From an uncultured Candidatus Saccharibacteria bacterium (lineage in GTDB: Bacteria; Patescibacteriota; Saccharimonadia; Saccharimonadales; Saccharimonadaceae), in assembly GCA_946409745.1 (NCBI GenBank), contig CAMJXP010000003.1, positions 1 through 42,620 on the forward strand: DNA of 42,620 bases, given 5' to 3'. The notes beneath the pieces were generated by a model. The model was not told the origin of the DNA. It made no database searches and saw only the letters and a program-made list of their open reading frames with translations. The translations under genes and the position numbers were made by a program. This document shows, in pieces, positions 38-10,824 of this stretch; within the stretch, counting starts at the first letter, position 1; each line of letters opens with the position of its first letter.

Positions 38-66
38 ATTATAACATTAACTTTATAAAAGGTCAA
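38..66 (-). promoter_or_regulatory. Sigma70-type promoter with extended -10
   Basis: On the minus strand TTGACC (66-61), a 17-bp spacer and TATAAT (43-38) are seen, with TG one base before the -10 (TGTTATAAT). It drives the gene starting at position 9 with a leader of about 20-25 nt. The -35 box overlaps the stop codon of the ADP-ribosylglycohydrolase gene, so the promoter lies exactly at the end of that gene. Confidence 0.8.
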
Positions 67-1154
67 GCGTTATCTGGTTTGAAAAATTCATCATCTTCGA
101 AGCGTGTGCGTTTAATAACACATTCGTCCATCTCTAGAAGTTCATCAGCGATTTTTACTAGTTCGTCTGATAGATAGACACCTTTTCGCCACTCTTCTGG
201 GATTGCCTCATAGCCATAATAGGCGCCGGCGAGTTGACCATAACAGGCGGCATTGGTATCAGTATCGCCACCCAAGCGAATTACAGCCATCATACCATCT
301 TTGAAATTTTTGAAATTCTGAAGTCCCCAGAGCGCAATTGCGAAGGTATCGACAATGTAGCCACCAAGATCATGGAATTGATTTTCGTCACGTTTCAACG
401 GCCTTTCGGTCAGTTCATTGATGTTGGAAATCCAAAAATCGTCAAGTTCTTCGCCTTTCATCCAACGAGACGCATAGTTTAGTATGTTTCGCTTTTCAAG
501 GCCATGTAGGGCTGAGTAAAGCGTTGTAGCGAACAATTCGGTTACGGTTATAGCTGCAATACTGTCATGGGTTTCTCGGCACGATAATTCGGCCATTTTG
601 AGCGTTGGTGCGATATCTTTACCGTCGATAAACTCACTGTTTTCATCTTCTGGGCTGATCACAAGCGAACCACTTTCGTAGCCGTCTTTTAAGGTCGGAT
701 AATTCTTATTTGGGAAAGTATTCGCAATAATGATTGGCGCTAGTCGCATAATTGGTGCGTTGCCGGCAGATTCGGTTTTCTCGGCGTCTTTTGGAATGGT
801 CTTGGATTTTTCCCATTCATCAAGGGCGTGGAGAGTTTGATTACCAACATCAAGTGGTGCTTGTGGGTGCTTGCGATAATCTGAATAGCACCATTCATAG
901 AAGCGCCTCATAATATCATAGGAATCGTAGCCTTTGTTCGCGATTAGACTATCAGCAATGCAGAGTGCCATTGAAGTATCGTCGGTCCAGACGCCTGCCG
1001 GGAGCCTTGAATTCTTGTGAAAATGTTCAATTTTCTCGCCCTGTTGCTTAATATAAAAATCAGATGGGGCTGGCAAAAATTCTACCGGAGCGCCCAAAGC
1101 GTCGCCGACGGCTAGGCCGACCAACATCCCACGCGCTTTATCTTGGTATTTCAT
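63..1154 (-). CDS. ADP-ribosylglycohydrolase (DraG/ARH family)
   Basis: This 363-residue protein matches the ADP-ribosylglycohydrolase fold, whose members remove ADP-ribose from proteins, nucleic acids or small molecules using two metal ions. Visible signatures are GLAVGDALG at residues 13-21, WTDDTS at 56-61 (metal-binding acidic cluster) and GGDTDTN at 295-301 (second metal cluster). The length is typical of bacterial members. Its ATG overlaps the TAA of the upstream membrane-protein gene by one base (TAATG), so the two are probably translated as an operon. The substrate cannot be read from sequence; dinitrogenase reductase is unlikely because there are no nitrogen-fixation genes here. No terminator follows, so reading through into the next leftward gene is possible. 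Confidence 0.9.
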   Translation of the reverse strand: MKYQDKARGMLVGLAVGDALGAPVEFLPAPSDFYIKQQGEKIEHFHKNSRLPAGVWTDDTSMALCIADSLIANKGYDSYDIMRRFYEWCYSDYRKHPQAPLDVGNQTLHALDEWEKSKTIPKDAEKTESAGNAPIMRLAPIIIANTFPNKNYPTLKDGYESGSLVISPEDENSEFIDGKDIAPTLKMAELSCRETHDSIAAITVTELFATTLYSALHGLEKRNILNYASRWMKGEELDDFWISNINELTERPLKRDENQFHDLGGYIVDTFAIALWGLQNFKNFKDGMMAVIRLGGDTDTNAACYGQLAGAYYGYEAIPEEWRKGVYLSDELVKIADELLEMDECVIKRTRFEDDEFFKPDNA

Positions 1155-2056: not shown

Positions 2057-2096
2057 ATATGTATCGTACATTAATAATTTGAAAGGGGGGATAAAA

Positions 2097-3269
2097 GTGT
2101 TGTATATTAGAAAGCCGATTATAGAATCTCAGTTCGAGTTTGCTATGAAGCATGGTTTGGTCCGGGCTAGGCATGCTTTAATGTTGGAACAATTCTTTCA
2201 GAAGCATGCCGGCGTCAAATTTGCATATGTACCGGAGCTAGTATACTTAGCTTTAGCACAACTTCTTGATCACGAAGATTCGAAGCGGATTATTTTATAC
2301 ATCCCGTTTGAAATCTTAAAAGATGCACCGCTTTGGTTTCGAGAAGTCTATCTTGATACATGGTACAGTATGCTTGGCACGATGGATGTGAGGGAGAACT
2401 TTCACGAAGGTGACATGATGGAGCCGGATGCCCGACCGAATGGGGAATTACCACGAGTCGTAAAGTGCGCCCATCTTACACCTTGGCTACTTGATTATGG
2501 TTACCTCACGTCTAGCGAAGTTCACGATTTAATCTCGCAGAATATTCACCACGAAGTATTAGTTCGTAGTTTCAAAGAAACTTGGGGAATTATTTCCGAA
2601 CGAAATATCTTAAAGCCAGAGCAGCTAGATGAGCTGGTTGCCCTTACAAAAGATATTCCGGATTTTACGCGTCTTGAGCCACTCTATATTTCGCCAAATC
2701 GAGCCAAATGGCTGGAAGAAAAAGATAAACCGCTAGGTGATTTAGTGACGCCAAACGCCTGTTTAACTGGTCCATTTTATCCGAATTTAGATGCAATTAT
2801 GGATCGATTGACGGCTTATCAAAAAGAAATGGATCCGTTTGATATTGCACTCGTTGGCGGTTCTTTCTTAAGAGGCTATGGCACAACCGATTCGGACCTT
2901 GATATCGTGCGTTATAGTGATTTTAAGAAAGATAGTAAGTTCTATATCGGTGATCCGAACCAAGCACATCTATTCTTTAATTCCGCGTGGCTTCCTGGCG
3001 AAAGGGTCTTCAATATTGAAGATTATGTTATCTCGGCGGCCTGGCGGTATCGAAAGAATGGGAAACGGAGATTGACGCTCGAAAGAATCGAATCGAATCT
3101 GATTCAGTATCGCTTGCTCCACAAAGGTTATAGTAGATTTACCGGTAAAACTAGTTTTAATACTAGTTCACATCCGGAATTCGACGGAGATTCGCCCTTT
3201 TATGATGACGACTTCCGTAAGATTGCAACAGTTTTATTCTATAAATATGTCTGGTTACCACAGGCATGA
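2097..3269 (+). CDS. Pol-beta-superfamily nucleotidyltransferase domain protein
   Basis: I place the start at GTG 2097, six bases after the AAAGGGGGG site at 2082-2090; a TTG at 2079 lies upstream of that site. The 390-residue protein carries the minimal nucleotidyltransferase signature: Gly-Gly-Ser at 254-256 followed by Asp267-Leu-Asp269 (TTDSDLDIV), the metal-binding pair of DNA polymerase beta, CCA-adding and antitoxin/effector nucleotidyltransferases. The first 240 residues form an unrecognised, mostly helical region. A third catalytic Asp is not obvious. The gene is a single transcription unit ending at a strong bidirectional terminator. It could transfer AMP or another nucleotide to RNA, protein or a small molecule; the substrate is unknown. 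Confidence 0.65.
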   Translation: MLYIRKPIIESQFEFAMKHGLVRARHALMLEQFFQKHAGVKFAYVPELVYLALAQLLDHEDSKRIILYIPFEILKDAPLWFREVYLDTWYSMLGTMDVRENFHEGDMMEPDARPNGELPRVVKCAHLTPWLLDYGYLTSSEVHDLISQNIHHEVLVRSFKETWGIISERNILKPEQLDELVALTKDIPDFTRLEPLYISPNRAKWLEEKDKPLGDLVTPNACLTGPFYPNLDAIMDRLTAYQKEMDPFDIALVGGSFLRGYGTTDSDLDIVRYSDFKKDSKFYIGDPNQAHLFFNSAWLPGERVFNIEDYVISAAWRYRKNGKRRLTLERIESNLIQYRLLHKGYSRFTGKTSFNTSSHPEFDGDSPFYDDDFRKIATVLFYKYVWLPQA

Positions 3270-3272
3270 AAA

Positions 3273-3297
3273 AGGCCCCTAACTCGGGGCCTCTTTT
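3273..3297. terminator. Bidirectional intrinsic terminator
   Basis: Arms AGGCCCC (3273-3279) and GGGGCCT (3286-3292) flank a 6-nt loop, with CTTTTT on the right and AAAAA on the left. It can end both the nucleotidyltransferase gene and the convergent helix-hairpin-helix operon. Confidence 0.9.
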
Positions 3298-3308
3298 TAA
3301 TGTGCGAT

Positions 3309-4484
3309 TTACAGAATGTTTTTTCCGGTCAGACCTTTAACGCCGCCGCGTTCAGGTTTTGTTACGCCCAGTTCACTCCAGTTGATTTGCGAACCGAGCT
3401 GCCAGAGTGCGACAAAGTAATCTACTTCCGCATCGGAAGTGATGGTATCGTGCTTCACAAAACCAAGGACATATTTGACCAGGTTCTGTTCGAGCCGGAC
3501 ATAATTGCTAGAGACGCTGGCGCCGATTTTCTTCAGCATCAGCTCGCGATTCTTCACGCCAACCATTGACGGCAAACGGGGATCTTCGAGAGTATTTCTG
3601 ATGTTGTTGGCTTCATAGGCCATAGCAGCAACAATCTGTACGCCGGTGCCACGAAATACACGGTTAATCGAGTTAACCAAGGTATCGGCCGCATCATGAA
3701 GCGGCGAAGTATCTGGTGGCGGAAGCATTCCGACTGCCGAGGAACCGTTCAAGGCACCAACAATTGATGCCGACAGCATGCTCGGGTCGAGCAGATTGCT
3801 TCTTCTGGTTTCATACCAGGCATCGAGCGCCTGATAACTTTCGGCAATGGCCGGCCAGAGAGTGGTGCGAATACGCCCCAGAAATTCACTCCGACGACCT
3901 TCAGTAATGAAGGAGCCGTCGAGACCATCAATGGCTGCAAAGATGTCGCCATAGGCCCGGCGGGTCAGAGATTTACGGAGTGCGTAGAAGGTCGGATCAA
4001 CTTGCTCTTCGGTCTCGTCCGCATATTTTTCCATGGCTTTCGCGAGGGCTTCCGGTACATTGTAAAGTCCGGCACGATCTGCCAAAGCAGCTCTAATTGC
4101 TGCAATGTAAGACGAGTCGTCCACTTTCAGGATACCACCAGTTTTCAAGGCGGTGAGCCAAGATTCATCGGTAGGAACGGAAGGAAGCAACATTTCAAGC
4201 GCCGGCGGAATGGCCGCTGCTTTTGTGGTTGCTTCGGACATAACGGTTGCTTTCTGTTCTTTTTTGAGATCAGAGACGAGCCGGCGAGCTTTGGCCAGTT
4301 TCAGGCCGACACCCGTCAGGTCTTCAACCTCCAGTACGTAGAGATCTTCGAGAGTCTCGACACCGAGTTTTTCCTCGATGTTTTTGATGGTTTCCACATT
4401 GATGCCATACTCTTTCAGTTTGGCGACCACGGGATTTTCCTTCACTTCTTCGACCTTTTCGATCGTTTTCTTAGTTTCACTCAT
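3309..4484 (-). CDS. Uncharacterised protein with N-terminal helix-hairpin-helix
   Basis: The ATG at 4484 follows a GGAGG site with a 6-nt gap, so it is preferred over an upstream in-frame codon at 4502 that lies inside the preceding gene. Of 391 residues, about 29-75 look like a helix-hairpin-helix/SAM-type module (LGVETLEDLYVL then LTGVGLKLAKARRL), which in known proteins binds DNA or mediates protein contacts. The remaining 300 residues are predicted to be largely helical and I do not recognise them; there are no membrane segments or cysteine clusters. It is the last gene of the leftward four-gene operon and terminates at the hairpin at 3273-3297. Base composition is visibly more G+C-rich than the preceding genes. 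Confidence 0.6.
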   Translation of the reverse strand: MSETKKTIEKVEEVKENPVVAKLKEYGINVETIKNIEEKLGVETLEDLYVLEVEDLTGVGLKLAKARRLVSDLKKEQKATVMSEATTKAAAIPPALEMLLPSVPTDESWLTALKTGGILKVDDSSYIAAIRAALADRAGLYNVPEALAKAMEKYADETEEQVDPTFYALRKSLTRRAYGDIFAAIDGLDGSFITEGRRSEFLGRIRTTLWPAIAESYQALDAWYETRRSNLLDPSMLSASIVGALNGSSAVGMLPPPDTSPLHDAADTLVNSINRVFRGTGVQIVAAMAYEANNIRNTLEDPRLPSMVGVKNRELMLKKIGASVSSNYVRLEQNLVKYVLGFVKHDTITSDAEVDYFVALWQLGSQINWSELGVTKPERGGVKGLTGKNIL

Positions 4485-4498
4485 GATAGTCCTCCATA

Positions 4499-5812
4499 TC
4501 ATTTTTCAAAATAAATTTTTTCTACTTCCGTAGGTCCAATTGACAAGCATTCAAGCTCCAGTCCACATTCCTTTTTTATGATGCCGCTTACCCTTAAAAA
4601 GAGTTCTTGGCTCGAAATGTTTTCCGGAATTTGTTTGCTTTCTATGATAGGTATTGCGTTTTTTAGGAAATCCGTGTAGCTTTCGCTATTTTTTGGGCTA
4701 TTCTGATAGCCCGTCGAATACTTAAAGCCTTGTTTCTTTCTTACTATCTCATCAAACCAAGTTAAATAGATTCCACGAAACTTAGTTTCTTTGCAAGATT
4801 CTAGAGCGTATCTCATTAGAGAAAAATCTAAAGGACCGGCCCTAACTTTACCTTGCCAGCGATTATTTGATTTATGACTGTCAGGCAACATCGTTCGGGT
4901 GAAGTTCTCGTCAAAAGTCGGCATTGGGCCGGCACCATGACGAATTTCATAGGCGCGATGAACTGCTAGATGACTGATTTCGCCGTCAAAACCGGCATTT
5001 CTAATCATTTGCTCGCTAAATATCGGGAGCGTTCTAATGGCACTGACATGGGGTTTTAAACCAGTTTCAGCGTCGGTTAGTACTCCGTGTGAACATTCAA
5101 CGATAGCGGTTCCGTCTGGTTTTAATACTTCTTTTAAAGTTGTGAGACGAAGTTTTCTACCAATATTTAAGAATAAATCTACAATATAAGGTAGAAAATC
5201 TGGGTCATCTAAGAGTGCTAAGTTATCTTCCAAACAATTGACGTCGTCTTTTAAAACATCTTCTGGTTTTAGGTTCCGATATAATTGTCGGTAGTATTCC
5301 AGCTCTCTTTTTAACTTTTTTAAGATTATCTCTTTTGAGGATAGCTCAGATGCTTTGATGACGTATTCTCCACCTAAGTTTTGATACATCCGATAGGCTT
5401 GCCCAACGCCGGTACCAACTGTTCCACGTGGATTGTCTTTTCGCTTGATTTCTTCAAGTTCGGAGGCAATCCGGTGAAATGGTGTGGCACAAAGGCAATT
5501 TGGATCAGCCTGAAGCATAAGAAAGGGATTTGCGATATCATGCTGTTTTAGGGCTTCGGCTTCATTTTCTAGAGAAACCGGCGAAATGATTATCTGTTCT
5601 GATAAAAACGTCGGTATTCCTTCAAAGGTTCCGCAGCCCCATTCAGAAAAGTTAAAACTATCTCCGTTTGAGGTGCGAACGCCATGAGAGCCCTGTGCGC
5701 CACCGCGTTTAATGATAACGCTAGCGTCCTTTTCGTAGGACAATGTGTGCACAATGTTGCCTTTGCCTCCGTCGCCAGGACCGAGGTCGGTAACAATGAT
5801 GACTTCGTGCAT
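4499..5812 (-). CDS. Divergent adenylosuccinate synthetase (PurA)-like enzyme
   Basis: PurA joins IMP and aspartate using GTP. This 437-residue protein keeps its skeleton: GDGGKG at 13-18 (GDEGKG in PurA, with the catalytic Asp as Asp14), GGAQGSHG at 37-44 (His43 matching catalytic His41 of E. coli), GTVGTGVGQAY at 130-140 (GTTGRGIGPAY), VECSHGVLTD at 238-247 (FEGAQGTLLD), HGAGPMPT at 292-299, KVRAGPLD at 322-329 (arginine-loop RRRTGWLD), TWFDE at 351-355 (TKLDV) and SIGPT at 424-428. Several nucleotide-pocket residues differ, including GAQG to CSHG and the TSSNTT segment. It is therefore probably a ligase of this family with a different nucleotide substrate. The ATG at 5812 follows GAGGTG. 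It sits in an operon with vWA and kinase-like genes, not purine biosynthesis genes, so a housekeeping PurA role is unlikely. Confidence 0.75.
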   Translation of the reverse strand: MHEVIIVTDLGPGDGGKGNIVHTLSYEKDASVIIKRGGAQGSHGVRTSNGDSFNFSEWGCGTFEGIPTFLSEQIIISPVSLENEAEALKQHDIANPFLMLQADPNCLCATPFHRIASELEEIKRKDNPRGTVGTGVGQAYRMYQNLGGEYVIKASELSSKEIILKKLKRELEYYRQLYRNLKPEDVLKDDVNCLEDNLALLDDPDFLPYIVDLFLNIGRKLRLTTLKEVLKPDGTAIVECSHGVLTDAETGLKPHVSAIRTLPIFSEQMIRNAGFDGEISHLAVHRAYEIRHGAGPMPTFDENFTRTMLPDSHKSNNRWQGKVRAGPLDFSLMRYALESCKETKFRGIYLTWFDEIVRKKQGFKYSTGYQNSPKNSESYTDFLKNAIPIIESKQIPENISSQELFLRVSGIIKKECGLELECLSIGPTEVEKIYFEK

Positions 5813-5854
5813 TTCGCACCTCTTTTCTGTAAACTAAATTGTTAAAGATTTTGA

Positions 5855-6934
5855 TCACAGGTATTCGATTTCGGTTGAGGGCTTTTCTTCGTCCCCAACT
5901 TTTTCATCGGGTTGAATCGGCCACAAATCTTCTTTTGTTCGGAAGATGTCGCCGATTTTCGGGATGGGGAAGGGAAGTGCCTGACGGAGTTTGGCTTGGG
6001 CGCCAATTTCGACATTGTTCAAATCGTAAATGGTTGACGAGCTGCAGTGGTAAGCTACAGTATTTCCGATATCGGTAATATCGATGGTGCCTTCAGTCAG
6101 ACCGATGATGGCCGATATTACTTCCGGAAGCTGTCCAGTAGTACTAATTCTGACCACGGACTTTTTGCCACAGACTTCGCGCCAGTATTCATAGGCGCTT
6201 GAGCGGTTTTCGACCACCAGAATAAACTGATGAGTCTTCGCCTTCAGATCTTTTACGACTTTCTCAAAGCTCGGGATTTCGCGCATGTTTTTCAGTTCAT
6301 TCTCAAAAACATTATTGCCGAAAATCCGCTGAATATCTTGGCGCCTTATGGAACCGTGACAGGTCGCGTCGGTAACGATAAAGTGATAACCTTTAAGACC
6401 GATACGGTTGGTGTAGGCATTCGTCAGGTAGGCTCTCGCAAACATTGCATATTGCGGATCTTCCGGAGAATCTCCACCGGCGCGCTGCGGGGCCATTTCT
6501 TTGAGGTAGCGTACGATTTTCTCGGCTTCCATCTCGAACTGCGGACGGCAGAGGACAAAATCGTCCACTACGTCGCCGAAAATGCCGAGACAGAGTTGTG
6601 GGTCATACCCAGGCAGGACTTTGGCGATGGCTTCATAGAGTTTCGGGAGAATTTTCATCTCCGTATCTACTTCACCACCCATCGAGCCAGTTGTATCGCA
6701 ACTGACTTCGATGTCCATCGGGCATCCCATGGTGGTAATCCACATCTTACGGTGCGGATTCAGACGAATCTTGGAATAGCGCATCGGGTTAATGCCGGGG
6801 TCAACGATTTCGTTGAGCTTTCCGGTCGCACGGGCTTGCCTTTCGGCGGTTCTCGTGACGTCCTTATCGCTCGTGATGCCGTAAGAACGGCGGGCACTGA
6901 CATAGCTGTCGACGGAAAAAGGTTTGTCTCCCAT
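5855..6934 (-). CDS. von Willebrand factor A (vWA) domain protein
   Basis: The 359-residue protein contains a vWA domain from about residue 73. The metal-ion-dependent adhesion site is Asp80-x-Thr82-x-Ser84 (DTTGSMGG), followed by GGDSPED at 153-159 and TDATCH at 188-193, which supply the other metal ligands. No signal peptide or membrane segment is seen, so it is an intracellular vWA protein, the kind that acts as a scaffold in chaperone or stress complexes. Residues 1-70 and the C-terminal part (from about 270) are unassigned. The ATG is set by a perfect AAGGAGG site 8 nt upstream. It starts 3 nt after the kinase-like gene ends, so coupling is expected. Confidence 0.85.
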   Translation of the reverse strand: MGDKPFSVDSYVSARRSYGITSDKDVTRTAERQARATGKLNEIVDPGINPMRYSKIRLNPHRKMWITTMGCPMDIEVSCDTTGSMGGEVDTEMKILPKLYEAIAKVLPGYDPQLCLGIFGDVVDDFVLCRPQFEMEAEKIVRYLKEMAPQRAGGDSPEDPQYAMFARAYLTNAYTNRIGLKGYHFIVTDATCHGSIRRQDIQRIFGNNVFENELKNMREIPSFEKVVKDLKAKTHQFILVVENRSSAYEYWREVCGKKSVVRISTTGQLPEVISAIIGLTEGTIDITDIGNTVAYHCSSSTIYDLNNVEIGAQAKLRQALPFPIPKIGDIFRTKEDLWPIQPDEKVGDEEKPSTEIEYL

Positions 6935-6937
6935 AGC

Positions 6938-7738
6938 TTAATCCTCCTTCAATTTTTTCCAAATGAGTGTGCCTTTATCTCGATAGGTAAATGTGTGATA
7001 TTTTCTACCCCACAGCTCTTCGATTACGACATACATCATTTTGTGTGCAGCTTCAAAAGTCATACTGCCATCTCTGGCTAGATTTTCGAGAAGTTCTCGG
7101 TAGGCTTTGTCTTCCTCTTCAATTACCGCCCATTCTAAGAACGTCTTTGCAATTTCTTTGACATAGTCATTTGCAACTACGTCAACGTTCTTTTCGGGAA
7201 AGTTATAGAAGATGACACGGTGTTTTTCCGGTTCGATTAGATAATCGCCAGTGGAAAAAACTGGGTATTCGATGGTGGATTGGTCGTTTGCGACTGCAAT
7301 TAGCTCAAAAAAGCCGTACAGTTTAAAGATTCGACCAAGGATCCAGGCGCTAGTTTTAGCATCTACTTCGATTTTTGCCATCAACTTTGATAGCGGGATC
7401 AGTTTGTCGAAGTCAACATCGGGAAGCGAGTAGACATTAATTCTGCGGCCACCTTGCGACTCATCAATGAATGACGCTTCGAGCTTAGCAAATAACCAAT
7501 CATAGTGGCTATCATTTTCTTTGGTCGGATTCTGAAAACGTCGAATTTCTGCTTCAAAGGTTTTCATTGTGTTAAACTTTCCAGCCTCGAATGCTAAGAC
7601 ATCGCCGTCTTCAAAGGTCTTGGCTACTTTCAGTACAACTGACGAGCCGTTGGCTTTTTCGCCTAGGTAAACGCGGTATTTGTCTGACTCTCCAATCCTG
7701 TTTTTGACTTCAAAATCTCTAACCTTCGTTGTTCTCAC
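6938..7738 (-). CDS. Degenerate protein-kinase-like protein
   Basis: The N-terminal third resembles a eukaryotic-type kinase N-lobe: a glycine-loop-like stretch (NRIGESDKYRVYLGE near 13-27) and a beta-3 lysine strand (VVLKVAK, 34-40). Further on, the HRVIFYNF segment sits where a catalytic/DFG region would be, but no HRD or DFG motif is visible, so it may be a pseudokinase. The start is uncertain. An ATG at 7804 overlaps the -10 box of the promoter at 7795-7823 and lies upstream of the expected transcript start, so it is rejected. I use GTG 7738, just after AGGAGG; another candidate is GTG 7774. It is first in the operon with the vWA, PurA-like and helix-hairpin-helix genes. Confidence 0.55.
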   Translation of the reverse strand: MRTTKVRDFEVKNRIGESDKYRVYLGEKANGSSVVLKVAKTFEDGDVLAFEAGKFNTMKTFEAEIRRFQNPTKENDSHYDWLFAKLEASFIDESQGGRRINVYSLPDVDFDKLIPLSKLMAKIEVDAKTSAWILGRIFKLYGFFELIAVANDQSTIEYPVFSTGDYLIEPEKHRVIFYNFPEKNVDVVANDYVKEIAKTFLEWAVIEEEDKAYRELLENLARDGSMTFEAAHKMMYVVIEELWGRKYHTFTYRDKGTLIWKKLKED

Positions 7739-7794
7739 TCCCTCCTGAATCAAAATGTAAAAAAATCTACGCACTTCTCCAGTGCATCGGTAAT

Positions 7795-7823
7795 ATTTTA
7801 GCATAATTGCTTAACTCTGTCAA
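7795..7823 (-). promoter_or_regulatory. Consensus promoter of the kinase-vWA-PurA-like operon
   Basis: On the minus strand TTGACA (7823-7818), a 17-bp spacer and TAAAAT (7800-7795) with extended TGC are seen. The transcript should start near 7788. Its -35 box is 18 bp from the -35 box of the divergent SPFH-gene promoter, so the two units could share regulation. Confidence 0.85.
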
Positions 7824-7841
7824 TCTATAACACCGATTAAA

Positions 7842-7870
7842 TTGACTATTTATATTGTTTGTGGTATAAT
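7842..7870 (+). promoter_or_regulatory. Consensus promoter of the SPFH gene
   Basis: TTGACT (7842-7847), a 17-bp spacer and TATAAT (7865-7870) with extended TGG are seen. The leader to the ATG at 7972 is about 95 nt and T-rich; I see no clear riboswitch or attenuator in it. Confidence 0.85.
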
Positions 7871-7971
7871 TATAAGTATTAGGGTGAGTACATTAAATTT
7901 TTGTGAGTTTTTATTTTTTTGTCTCTCCCTTTAATATACTTGATCAGACTGCTAATTTAGGAGGTTCAAAA

Positions 7972-9609
7972 ATGTCAATCATTCCCATCATTATCATTGC
8001 GGTGGCTGTCGTTCTGTTCATTGTGTTGATCTTTGCGATGATCAAGACTGCGAACGGTAATGAAGCCTTGGTCGTTTCCGGCGTTGGTGCTACTGATAAA
8101 AACGGTAATCCCACGATTAAACGCGCCGGTGGTAGAGTCGTAATACCTTTTATCCAAAAAGCAAAGTATTTCGACTTGTGTGTTCGTACGGCAAAAGTTG
8201 AGGGAGATGTAACCAAAACTATCTGCGGTGTTCCGATTTCAATTGACTGGGCTGTGGCATACAGCCCGGACATTACCTCTGAGGAGAGCCTGCAGAAGGC
8301 GGTTTGCAATTTCCTCGATAAAGATGATCAGGACCTTGAGCGTGTTATTCTTGATATCGTTTCCGGCGGCGTCCGTGCGGTTATCTCTAGAATGACGCCC
8401 GAGGAAGTCATGAATGGTAAGGACCAGCTTGACGACAACGTCAAAAAGTCCATTGCTACGCAGATGCATGACCTTGGCTTTAATGCGATTTTGTCTATCC
8501 ACGAAGTTGAAGATGCAAATGGTTCGACCTACTTCCACGATTTGGCGGCCAAAGACCGTGAGACAAAACGTCGTGAAGCGGCAAATATCACGGCTGAAAA
8601 TGATCAGCAGATTCGTGAGACAAAGGCCGAGACTGATCGGGCAGCACAGGAAAAAGAGCTGGCTGCGCAGGTCATGATTGCGGAAAAGCAGCGTGATACT
8701 GATGTGAGACGAGCTCAATTTCAAGCGGAGACAGCGCGCGAGCAGGCAAAGTCAGAAATGGCTGGCGAACTCGAGCGGACTGATATTACTCAGGAGCTCG
8801 AAAAGAAGAAGGGCGCCGTTGCTGTAATGCAAGCCGAACAGGCTAATCTGGCGGCTTTGAAGCAACAGGAAGTCGAAGTGACTCGTGCCGAGACGGCTAA
8901 ACGGACGACGATTATTTCGGCGCAGGCGGAAGCTGAGCGCAAGAAAGAAGAGGCGACTGGTGAAGCTGAAGCGGCGGCGGTCAGGAAAATGCGTGATGCT
9001 GATGCTACGGCAGAAGCGCGCAAAACCGAGGCTGAAGGTAAAGCCTCGGCGCGCAAGACTGAAGCGGCGGCAGAAGCTGACGCTGTAAAGATTCAAGCGG
9101 AAGCGGACGCCTCGGCTGTGAAAGCCCGTGGCGAAGCGGAAGCGGCAGCAATTTCTGCCAAAGGTAAAGCTGAGGCAGAAGCAATTGAAGCCAAAGGTAA
9201 GGCTGAAGCTGAGGCGGCTCGTGCACTCTCGGATGCTCAGGCAGCTAACGACAAGGTTAACTTCGAGTTGAAGAAGATTGAAATCGAGCAGAATACTCGT
9301 GTGCAGGTTGCAACTAATATTGCAACGGTTATGGCCGAGGTCGGCAAGAACGCTAAGTTCTACGACTTCGGTGGTGGCGCCAAAGAAGGTCAGTCCGGCG
9401 ATCTTTTGACTAGTGTTCTCACTAGAATTCCGACGCTGTTTGCTCAGGCAAATATGCAGAATCAGGCATTGAATGATGAAGAATTGACCAAGACGATTAG
9501 GTCTTTGGTTGCTTCAGTCGTCGATGCTAAGGATAAGGGAACTACAACGACAAGTGACGACGACTCCGATATTGAAGTAGTTGACCACGATGACGCTGAT
9601 GTGATGTAA
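7972..9609 (+). CDS. SPFH/band-7 (flotillin-like) membrane protein
   Basis: The start is ATG 7972, preceded by AGGAGG; an upstream in-frame extension to 7903 lacks a ribosome-binding site. The 545-residue protein has one N-terminal membrane segment (about residues 3-25), then an SPFH domain (about 26-190), then a long Ala/Glu/Lys-rich coiled coil with repeats such as EAEAIEAKGKAEAEA, and a C-terminal tail ending in acidic residues. This is the architecture of flotillins, which oligomerise into membrane microdomain scaffolds. It has its own promoter, divergent from the kinase-vWA operon, and its own terminator. The context suggests it provides the membrane platform for the neighbouring module; this is inference. 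Confidence 0.85.
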   Translation: MSIIPIIIIAVAVVLFIVLIFAMIKTANGNEALVVSGVGATDKNGNPTIKRAGGRVVIPFIQKAKYFDLCVRTAKVEGDVTKTICGVPISIDWAVAYSPDITSEESLQKAVCNFLDKDDQDLERVILDIVSGGVRAVISRMTPEEVMNGKDQLDDNVKKSIATQMHDLGFNAILSIHEVEDANGSTYFHDLAAKDRETKRREAANITAENDQQIRETKAETDRAAQEKELAAQVMIAEKQRDTDVRRAQFQAETAREQAKSEMAGELERTDITQELEKKKGAVAVMQAEQANLAALKQQEVEVTRAETAKRTTIISAQAEAERKKEEATGEAEAAAVRKMRDADATAEARKTEAEGKASARKTEAAAEADAVKIQAEADASAVKARGEAEAAAISAKGKAEAEAIEAKGKAEAEAARALSDAQAANDKVNFELKKIEIEQNTRVQVATNIATVMAEVGKNAKFYDFGGGAKEGQSGDLLTSVLTRIPTLFAQANMQNQALNDEELTKTIRSLVASVVDAKDKGTTTTSDDDSDIEVVDHDDADVM

Positions 9610-9632
9610 ATCACAATCTAAAAACTCACATT

Positions 9633-9655
9633 GCCCCCGATTCTGGGGGCTTTTT
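9633..9655 (+). terminator. Intrinsic terminator of the SPFH gene
   Basis: GCCCCC (9633-9638), a 6-nt loop, GGGGGC (9645-9650), then TTTTT. Confidence 0.9.
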
Positions 9656-9702: not shown

Positions 9703-10824
9703 TTATTTTTCTGGGTGCGGAAGATGGCCAACGCTTGCAATGTTGACGTTGCGGTATACCGGGTTTTCGGTGACTTCTTTAATGACTGTGAGATAAGCGG
9801 GAATAAAAGCTTGACTTTCTGCGGTCGGAAGCTCGACTTCGAGAATGGCGTATTCGGTTTCGCCGGCATAGGTGTCAATTTCGAGATACTGACCAGATTC
9901 ACGCTGCATAATGCAATAGCGAGTCTTTCGGACCGGATGAAGATCGGGGTCGGCGTGCATCAGGAGCTTAAGATATTCATCTTTACTGATGCGTTTTTCA
10001 ATTTCGACACGCTTGCTCGGTTCGTCGGTGTAGCGTTTTTCGGTCTTGGTGAAGCTGTAGCTTCCATTACTGCCACGCTGACGGACACGAACTTCGACGT
10101 TTGGCTCCGAAACAAGATAGGTTTGCAAAATTTCAACTTTCTCGCAATTTGGCATGGTCATGAGCAGTTCCGTATCAGGATATCGGATTAGGAACTTGCG
10201 TTCAATTTCGTACGGCTCAGGTTCGCCAAGGAAATTTGAGATTTCACTCATCAGATTTTTCAGTTTGTCTTCGAAAGTACCCTTGTTCTTGATAATTCTA
10301 AGATGTGGGTGGCCGACCCAAGCGTTTTGAGTCCTGCGGTCAAGTTCGATAGCTTCTTTGACGCCTTCGCTTCTAGCGATATTATTCTGAAGTGTATAGA
10401 ATTCTTCGGCGCCATCGGCTGCGGTGACGAGATGAAAGACGGCATCATAGCGATCAAGCGCCTTAGTCATGTCGTAATCGAAGTATTTTAAAACTGCTTC
10501 GAATTCTTCTTTACTAAGATAAGCACGATTGTCGCAAATGCCTCGGTCGCACACAACTAAGACTTTGTCTTTATCTTTAAGACAGGGGGCGTACACTTCA
10601 ACGGCGTCTTCTTTGTCGAGCTGAGTGCCCATCAAGAGCTTCTGAAAGGCCAAGGGATTAGTGAAATCGACTGGCGACATGCCGGAAGTGATGAGTTCGG
10701 TGGCAGCTTCATTTACAACGATAACTTTCCAGCCGTTTTTACTAAAATAATTAGAAATCCAGCTGAGTGCAGTGGTTTTACCGGCGCAAGGACCGCCGGT
10801 TAAGACAATCCTTTTCATTTCCAT
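9703..10824 (-). CDS. AAA-type P-loop NTPase fused to CYTH domain
   Basis: The 373-residue protein has two parts. The first (about 1-195) is a P-loop nucleoside kinase-like/AAA_28 domain with Walker A GGPCAGKTT at 10-18. The second starts near residue 205 with the EIERKF signature of CYTH (triphosphate tunnel metalloenzyme) domains, which cleave or form triphosphate compounds in a beta-barrel; the alternating E/K/R strands (VEVRVRQRG, KRVEIEKRI) fit this. The ATG at 10824 follows AAGGAGG by 8 nt. Such fusions probably act on a phosphorylated small molecule; the substrate is unknown. It is monocistronic with its own terminator. Confidence 0.85.
   Translation of the reverse strand: MEMKRIVLTGGPCAGKTTALSWISNYFSKNGWKVIVVNEAATELITSGMSPVDFTNPLAFQKLLMGTQLDKEDAVEVYAPCLKDKDKVLVVCDRGICDNRAYLSKEEFEAVLKYFDYDMTKALDRYDAVFHLVTAADGAEEFYTLQNNIARSEGVKEAIELDRRTQNAWVGHPHLRIIKNKGTFEDKLKNLMSEISNFLGEPEPYEIERKFLIRYPDTELLMTMPNCEKVEILQTYLVSEPNVEVRVRQRGSNGSYSFTKTEKRYTDEPSKRVEIEKRISKDEYLKLLMHADPDLHPVRKTRYCIMQRESGQYLEIDTYAGETEYAILEVELPTAESQAFIPAYLTVIKEVTENPVYRNVNIASVGHLPHPEK

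Follow-up and report, generated by a model that had tools for sequence, protein, structure and literature searches.

A vWA and PurA-like gene module of Candidatus Saccharibacteria, phages and plasmids suggests nucleotide-based chemistry in phage-host conflict

The 42,620-nt stretch of contig CAMJXP010000003.1 analyzed here (the window, whose positions serve as coordinates throughout) belongs to a gut genome of Candidatus Saccharibacteria (637 kb, 78% complete). It carries, packed on one strand, genes for a helix-hairpin-helix (HhH) protein, a paralogue of adenylosuccinate synthetase (PurA), a vWA-type protein and a kinase-like protein, which face an SPFH gene across a divergent promoter pair. 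We consider it probable that this locus is the Saccharibacteria form of a vWA and PurA-like module found in phages, plasmids and bacteria, in which a GTP-activated 6-oxopurine would be joined to an amine that is not free aspartate. Altogether, the lost aspartate pocket of the enzyme and the near-invariant N-terminal glycine of the vWA protein suggest an undescribed nucleotide-based chemistry in phage-host conflict.

Layout of the locus and the conserved Saccharibacteria set

2079-3269, plus strand: nucleotidyltransferase-like (NT) gene, convergent; motif GGSFLRGYGTTDSDLDI; core of the Saccharibacteria form
3273-3292, plus strand: terminator-like stem between the convergent NT and HhH genes; 7 pairs, 6 of them GC, T tail
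3309-4502, minus strand: HhH protein; N-terminal helix-hairpin-helix, then an all-helical body
4499-5812, minus strand: PurA-like enzyme; Asp13, Lys16 and His41 kept, L-aspartate loop replaced by NRWQGKVR
5855-6934, minus strand: vWA-type protein; MIDAS-like D80, T82, S84, D121 and D189, Met-Gly N terminus
6938 to about 7738, minus strand: predicted kinase-fold pseudokinase; GTG start after GGAGG, no J domain in Saccharibacteria
7795-7870, both strands: divergent promoter pair, TTGACA-17-TAAAAT (minus) and TTGACT-17-TATAAT (plus)
7972-9609, plus strand: SPFH/flotillin-like protein, accessory; Pfam PF01145, ATG start after AGGAGG
9633-9650, plus strand: terminator-like stem 3' of the SPFH gene, from stem prediction

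The original prediction for this DNA had described four tightly spaced leftward genes divergent from a rightward SPFH gene, with consensus promoters whose -35 boxes lie 18 bp apart and a terminator at either end, and this layout stands. The HhH and PurA-like genes overlap by 4 bp, 42 bp separate the PurA-like and vWA genes, and 3 bp the vWA and kinase-like genes. The promoters lie back to back at 7823 (minus) and 7842 (plus), each an 11/12 match with a TG-extended -10 box; promoter-like matches in total are not enriched (7 observed versus 11.6 in shuffles), and it is the placement of the pair, not the number of such matches, that supports it. No terminator-like stem of the region is stronger than those at 3273-3292 and 9633-9650. 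The PurA-like and flotillin-like identities hold as well (PF00709, E 8e-30, 104 bits against a gathering cut-off of 27; PF01145, E 2e-20), the SPFH gene starting at the ATG at 7972, which AGGAGG precedes, and not at 7903.

Among relatives, the order kinase-like, vWA, PurA-like and HhH is maintained at 40 to 70% identity, and the convergent NT gene lies beside the HhH gene in most loci. Strong matches to the vWA and NT genes are present in the same 12 of 95 relative genomes, the HhH gene in those 12 plus two more, and the distribution of the PurA-like gene fits this pattern. By these comparisons the conserved unit consists of the pseudokinase, vWA, PurA-like and HhH genes plus the NT gene beyond the left terminator; since the flanks differ between most genomes, the cassette is accessory. 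The NT protein weakly matches the minimal nucleotidyltransferase HI0073. The HhH domain is a sub-threshold Pfam match, and the AlphaFold model of this protein (pLDDT 71) has no significant structural match in the PDB.

Hence, of the five-gene module first proposed, the kinase-like, vWA, PurA-like and HhH genes remain, whereas the NT gene had been missed and SPFH does not belong to the core. The SPFH gene adjoins the module in one species cluster and lies past the NT gene in one other genome; genus-wide, it occurs in 6/12 module genomes versus 3/45 others (Fisher p 0.0015, or 0.016 once near-identical genomes are collapsed), frequently on a different contig from the module. Being absent beside most module copies, it was dropped as a core partner and is a loose associate at best. 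The HhH, NT and, optionally, SPFH genes would be Saccharibacteria additions to the module core.

The module core in phages, plasmids and bacteria

Searches by tblastn placed a protein of ~350 aa, the vWA protein and the PurA-like protein, in this order, on actinobacterial (Rhodococcus, Tsukamurella) and proteobacterial (Agrobacterium, Acetobacter) plasmids, and found the module core also in Variovorax; an NrtR-type NUDIX regulator lies beside the plasmid copies in three genera. The vWA profile matched 70 IMG/VR contigs, and the vWA plus PurA-like core is present on about 65. Across 80 viral, plasmid and phage loci with 49 vWA lineages (defined at 60% identity), a PurA-like gene lies near the vWA gene in 71 and a kinase-like gene in 44. 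Among mycobacteriophages of the genus Bixzunavirus, ~190 records carry the PurA-like gene, and the triad was checked in Nappy; vibrio and rhizobium phages carry the vWA and PurA-like genes, with no kinase detected, and more distant Patescibacteria have the module as well. The core thus delineated by sequence appears to be a vWA gene plus a PurA paralogue, usually joined by a J-domain pseudokinase, shared patchily by phages, plasmids and bacteria. The original prediction had taken these genes to act together, and the kinase-like, vWA and PurA-like genes do recur jointly over phyla, plasmids and phages. One IMG/VR contig (L055), which holds the complete five-gene Saccharibacteria set with a GH25-like gene upstream, aligns collinearly with a Saccharibacteria contig (85-93%) and may be a prophage or a misassigned chromosome, perhaps not viral; the phage residence of the module therefore rests on the isolate phages and the other contigs. 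A conserved protein of ~235 aa and no known family is encoded directly 5' of the vWA gene in L105 (5087-5794) and some 12 further viral or phage loci; in most of these loci no pseudokinase was detected (e.g., vibrio phages).

In established PurA structures, the loop T300-T301-G302-R303-x-R305 (TTGRxR) binds L-aspartate, and the residues kept here shift the GTP gamma-phosphate onto the 6-oxygen of the purine nucleotide, roles that are those of the residues in Escherichia coli PurA. The loop is gapped or replaced in all module PurA-likes scored, the replacement itself being conserved as N..N.(W/F)QG.hR, i.e., (W/F)QGxxR. Asp13, Lys16 and His41 are kept (Asp13 and His41 in nearly all), Asp333 is mostly retained, and Gln224 is kept except in Saccharibacteria, whose proteins carry His and sit on a long branch within the clade. 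Moreover, Asn38 is replaced by Gln, Thr129 by Cys, Val or Ile, Val273 by His in all those scored, and Lys331 by Cys, His or Trp. On this pattern the enzyme appears to have lost its L-aspartate pocket and kept its phosphoryl-transfer residues. The 83 module PurA-likes form one clade separate from PurA and PurZ (support 100/99) in a tree with a thin outgroup of six canonical PurA and one PurZ.

The vWA call rests on a DxTGSM...D...D pattern of the metal ion-dependent adhesion site (MIDAS) type, invariant across 87 homologues; no Pfam vWA model matches the protein, and the vWA and kinase profiles retrieved nothing useful from PDB sequences. The window gene starts with ATGGGA after a Shine-Dalgarno AGGAGG, and a Shine-Dalgarno-like sequence precedes the vWA start in 69 of the 72 loci examined. 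Glycine at position 2 (Gly2) is found in 98% of the 87 sequences, conserved like the MIDAS residues, and in 48/49 lineages against a background of 3.3%, with a median between-lineage identity of 35%; the N termini of the PurA-like protein and the pseudokinase follow no comparable position-2 rule. The sole exceptional lineage (L114) has no PurA. Together with three related vWA genes (L151, L152:12174-13181 and L155), it begins with Met followed by Ser, Ala or Pro, and the related non-Gly2 genes, which lie mostly beside J-domain kinase-like genes, have no PurA-like gene of their own next to them; in L152, a Gly2-type and a sister-type vWA gene stand side by side. The contrast between PurA-coupled and uncoupled vWA genes is partly phylogenetic, and two distant Patescibacteria with a PurA-like gene (L150 and L154) violate the rule.

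As a separate observation, a mycobacteriophage vWA gene (L125:6867-8645) gives a weak Hint/intein match, which, if real, would account for its length of 593 aa; the counterpart gene in phage Pinkcreek is annotated as an HNH endonuclease.

The product of 6938-7738, which has no Pfam match, is predicted to adopt a protein-kinase fold, its AlphaFold model (pLDDT 87.5) matching Ser/Thr kinases of the PDB in Foldseek (E ~2e-6). The kinase-like label of the original prediction is upheld for the fold but has to be narrowed, the catalytic aspartates being mostly absent: the HRD Asp is present in 1/13 and the DFG Asp in 0/13 Saccharibacteria proteins, in 5/42 and 12/42 viral ones, respectively, and both are missing from all four plasmid copies. 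The VAIK-type Lys is often retained. By these residues the protein is a predicted pseudokinase; at L114, the locus without PurA, it resembles an active kinase. The plasmid proteins have an N-terminal J domain (HPD) ahead of the kinase-like part.

Near viral copies we found NAMPT (9 loci, 6 lineages), NMNAT-NUDIX, NADAR, the RNA-repair domains HAD-SAK and 2H-SAK, Thg1, RNA ligase, TROVE and one Thoeris inhibitor, Tad3. None of them occurred around the control gene, ribonucleotide reductase, among families with at least two members, single matches there being only partly listed. The families beside phage copies point towards salvage of NAD+ and repair of RNA, and are weak to moderate support for a role close to NAD+ and RNA damage.

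Proposed mechanism and competing explanations

We propose that the PurA-like enzyme would use GTP to activate a 6-oxopurine nucleotide, and that an amine other than free aspartate would attack and join purine C6, so that either a modified nucleotide or a partner tagged with a nucleotide would result. The vWA protein would be indispensable to the enzyme as its partner, either donating the amine or acting as a regulator, and the pseudokinase, which outside Saccharibacteria has a J domain, would be a scaffold or co-chaperone. Such a module would probably play its part in phage-host conflict that revolves around NAD+ and RNA damage; its function, its defence role and the formation of a complex are what we infer from sequence. 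In a bolder version, which we put forward tentatively and regard as rather unlikely, methionine aminopeptidase would free the N-terminal Gly of the vWA protein, which would then replace the aspartate amine and be joined to purine C6 by the PurA-like enzyme and GTP. The resulting N-terminally tagged protein would carry an N6-linked nucleotide (with IMP, a mass gain of ~330 Da) and, if this is true, would represent an undescribed protein modification of phages, plasmids and bacteria in NAD+/RNA-damage conflicts.

The nearest rival to the vWA glycine as amine is a free product, in which a signal or modified nucleotide would be made from another small amine (glycine, ammonia or another amino acid) without covalent involvement of the vWA protein, whose Gly would form a tail for docking or regulation, or be part of the structure of the vWA protein itself. 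This is a serious possibility that falls short of being probable. vWA domains usually bind peptides via MIDAS, Gly2 could serve packing or assembly, and a soluble nucleotide as ligand is suggested by the NrtR-like NUDIX regulators that adjoin plasmid copies; yet it leaves unexplained why Gly2 goes with PurA and is absent from PurA-less sisters, a contrast that is also phylogenetic. Several observations weigh against the chemistry that we prefer, a purine joined to an amine other than aspartate. Gln224, which is important in PurA catalysis, is aligned with His in the Saccharibacteria enzymes; two orphan PurA-likes (L042:5768-7141 and L043:8617-9669) have Asn in place of Asp13, L043 also lacking the loop region, and are probably decayed or repurposed; the replacement loop could in principle bind aspartate after all; and the conservation of residues alone is not proof of PurA-like activity. 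Moreover, the pseudokinase goes undetected in about 30 viral loci as well as in the vibrio and rhizobium phages, and the viral-context families each occur in few lineages (6 for NAMPT).

An ordinary adenylosuccinate synthetase that makes AMP and neighbours the module genes by chance would fit the PF00709 score and the kept catalytic Asp and His. The concern of the original prediction that this might be the sole PurA of its genome, at work in purine synthesis, is half borne out, and only in form: it is indeed the only PF00709 gene of the 78%-complete assembly, but PurB (adenylosuccinate lyase) was found neither in that assembly (PF10397, PF00206) nor in any other module genome searched, and relatives that lack the module mostly have no PF00709 gene whatsoever, so that AMP synthesis is very unlikely. 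With the aspartate loop replaced, Lys331 lost, Asn38 and Thr129 changed, a clade of its own and tight vWA linkage across phages, we reject purine synthesis on residues, PurB absence and clade, in keeping with the initial view that this is no ordinary PurA, and leave it hardly any credence. Equally little is left for a PurZ-type enzyme making 2-aminoadenine nucleotides for Z-DNA: phage copies bear the name of PHROG 1211, '2-aminooxy adenylosuccinate synthetase', but the module proteins keep Asp13, where PurZ carries Ser (or Gly) (PMC12884076), and their clade stands apart at 100/99 from the one PurZ in the tree; we reject this identity, too. The analogy to tellurium-resistance (Ter) stress systems, with an SPFH membrane anchor, could draw on the combination of vWA, kinase fold and nucleotide enzyme and on the weak SPFH co-occurrence. 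No test came out in its favour. As initially noted, TerC, TerD and ATP-grasp are missing, and neither these nor TelA or a biosynthetic phosphoribosyltransferase was found among the 19 window proteins, a part of the window's open reading frames, scanned with Pfam; the vWA protein matches no Pfam model and SPFH is absent beside most copies. We hold such a system to be very improbable.

Known systems and flanking genes

To our knowledge, PurA and PurZ are the only two characterized activities of PF00709, and the module PurA-likes would form a third, widespread clade labelled PurA or PurZ in databases. They share with PurA the fold, the GDxGKG loop with Asp13 and Lys16, His41, the guanine-binding Asp333 in most and Gln224 outside Saccharibacteria, and differ in (W/F)QGxxR instead of TTGRxR, in altered V273, N38, T129 and K331, and in hosts that, as far as searched, lack PurB. 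Like PurZ/PurZ0 of Z-genome phages, they are phage-borne PurA paralogues; unlike them, they have Asp13 and belong to another clade, whereas PurZ has Ser13 (the PurZ of SH-Ab 15497 falls in the Ser/Gly class in our residue comparison) and has N38 and T129 unchanged. A published tree of 481 viral PF00709 proteins has a PurZ group of only 151 sequences, archaeal ones included (PMC12884076), which leaves room for the module clade.

The module resembles MoxR-vWA and vWA conflict systems (Kaur et al. 2020, PMC7159879) in its patchiness and in a MIDAS vWA protein as likely peptide-binding partner, but has a PurA paralogue and a pseudokinase; no MoxR AAA+ ATPase was found among the window proteins scanned with Pfam, the neighbouring AAA_28 being a different family. 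With the ADP-ribose systems that are centred on ADP-ribosylglycohydrolase and include Nudix-HTH regulators and vWA chaperones (PMC9503650) it shares the association of a Nudix-HTH regulator with vWA and the NAD+/ADP-ribose context, whereas their core is that enzyme and the module's a PurA paralogue plus pseudokinase. PurA is mentioned in neither of these papers, nor in a jumbo-phage paper. NAMPT and NMNAT beside several phage copies recall the phage NAD+ reconstitution pathways (NARP; PMC12774641), from which the module differs in having no NAD-synthesizing enzyme itself. None of the seven window proteins scanned against the defence-system models of PADLOC gave a match, and no description of the module was found in PADLOC, Pfam or the open full-text literature, the scope of our search, so that an earlier account may exist among subscription papers and preprints. 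Its presence in ~190 sequenced mycobacteriophages means that a phage and its host kept in the laboratory could serve to test it. An answer would assign a function to genes that occur in many large phages, in plasmids and in streamlined Patescibacteria; a nucleotide signal or a protein-nucleotide conjugate of a new kind might come to light.

Two genes flank the locus in the window. Just past the module, an ADP-ribosylglycohydrolase gene (63-1154, minus strand; PF03747, E 6e-62) is part of a two-gene unit; it is retained in a close relative (L027), and none was seen in the wider set. On the other side, the gene at 9703-10824 (minus strand), which adjoins SPFH in close relatives, encodes a NadR/Ttd14-like P-loop domain (AAA_28), apparently fused to a CYTH-like domain, with a possible link to nucleotide metabolism.

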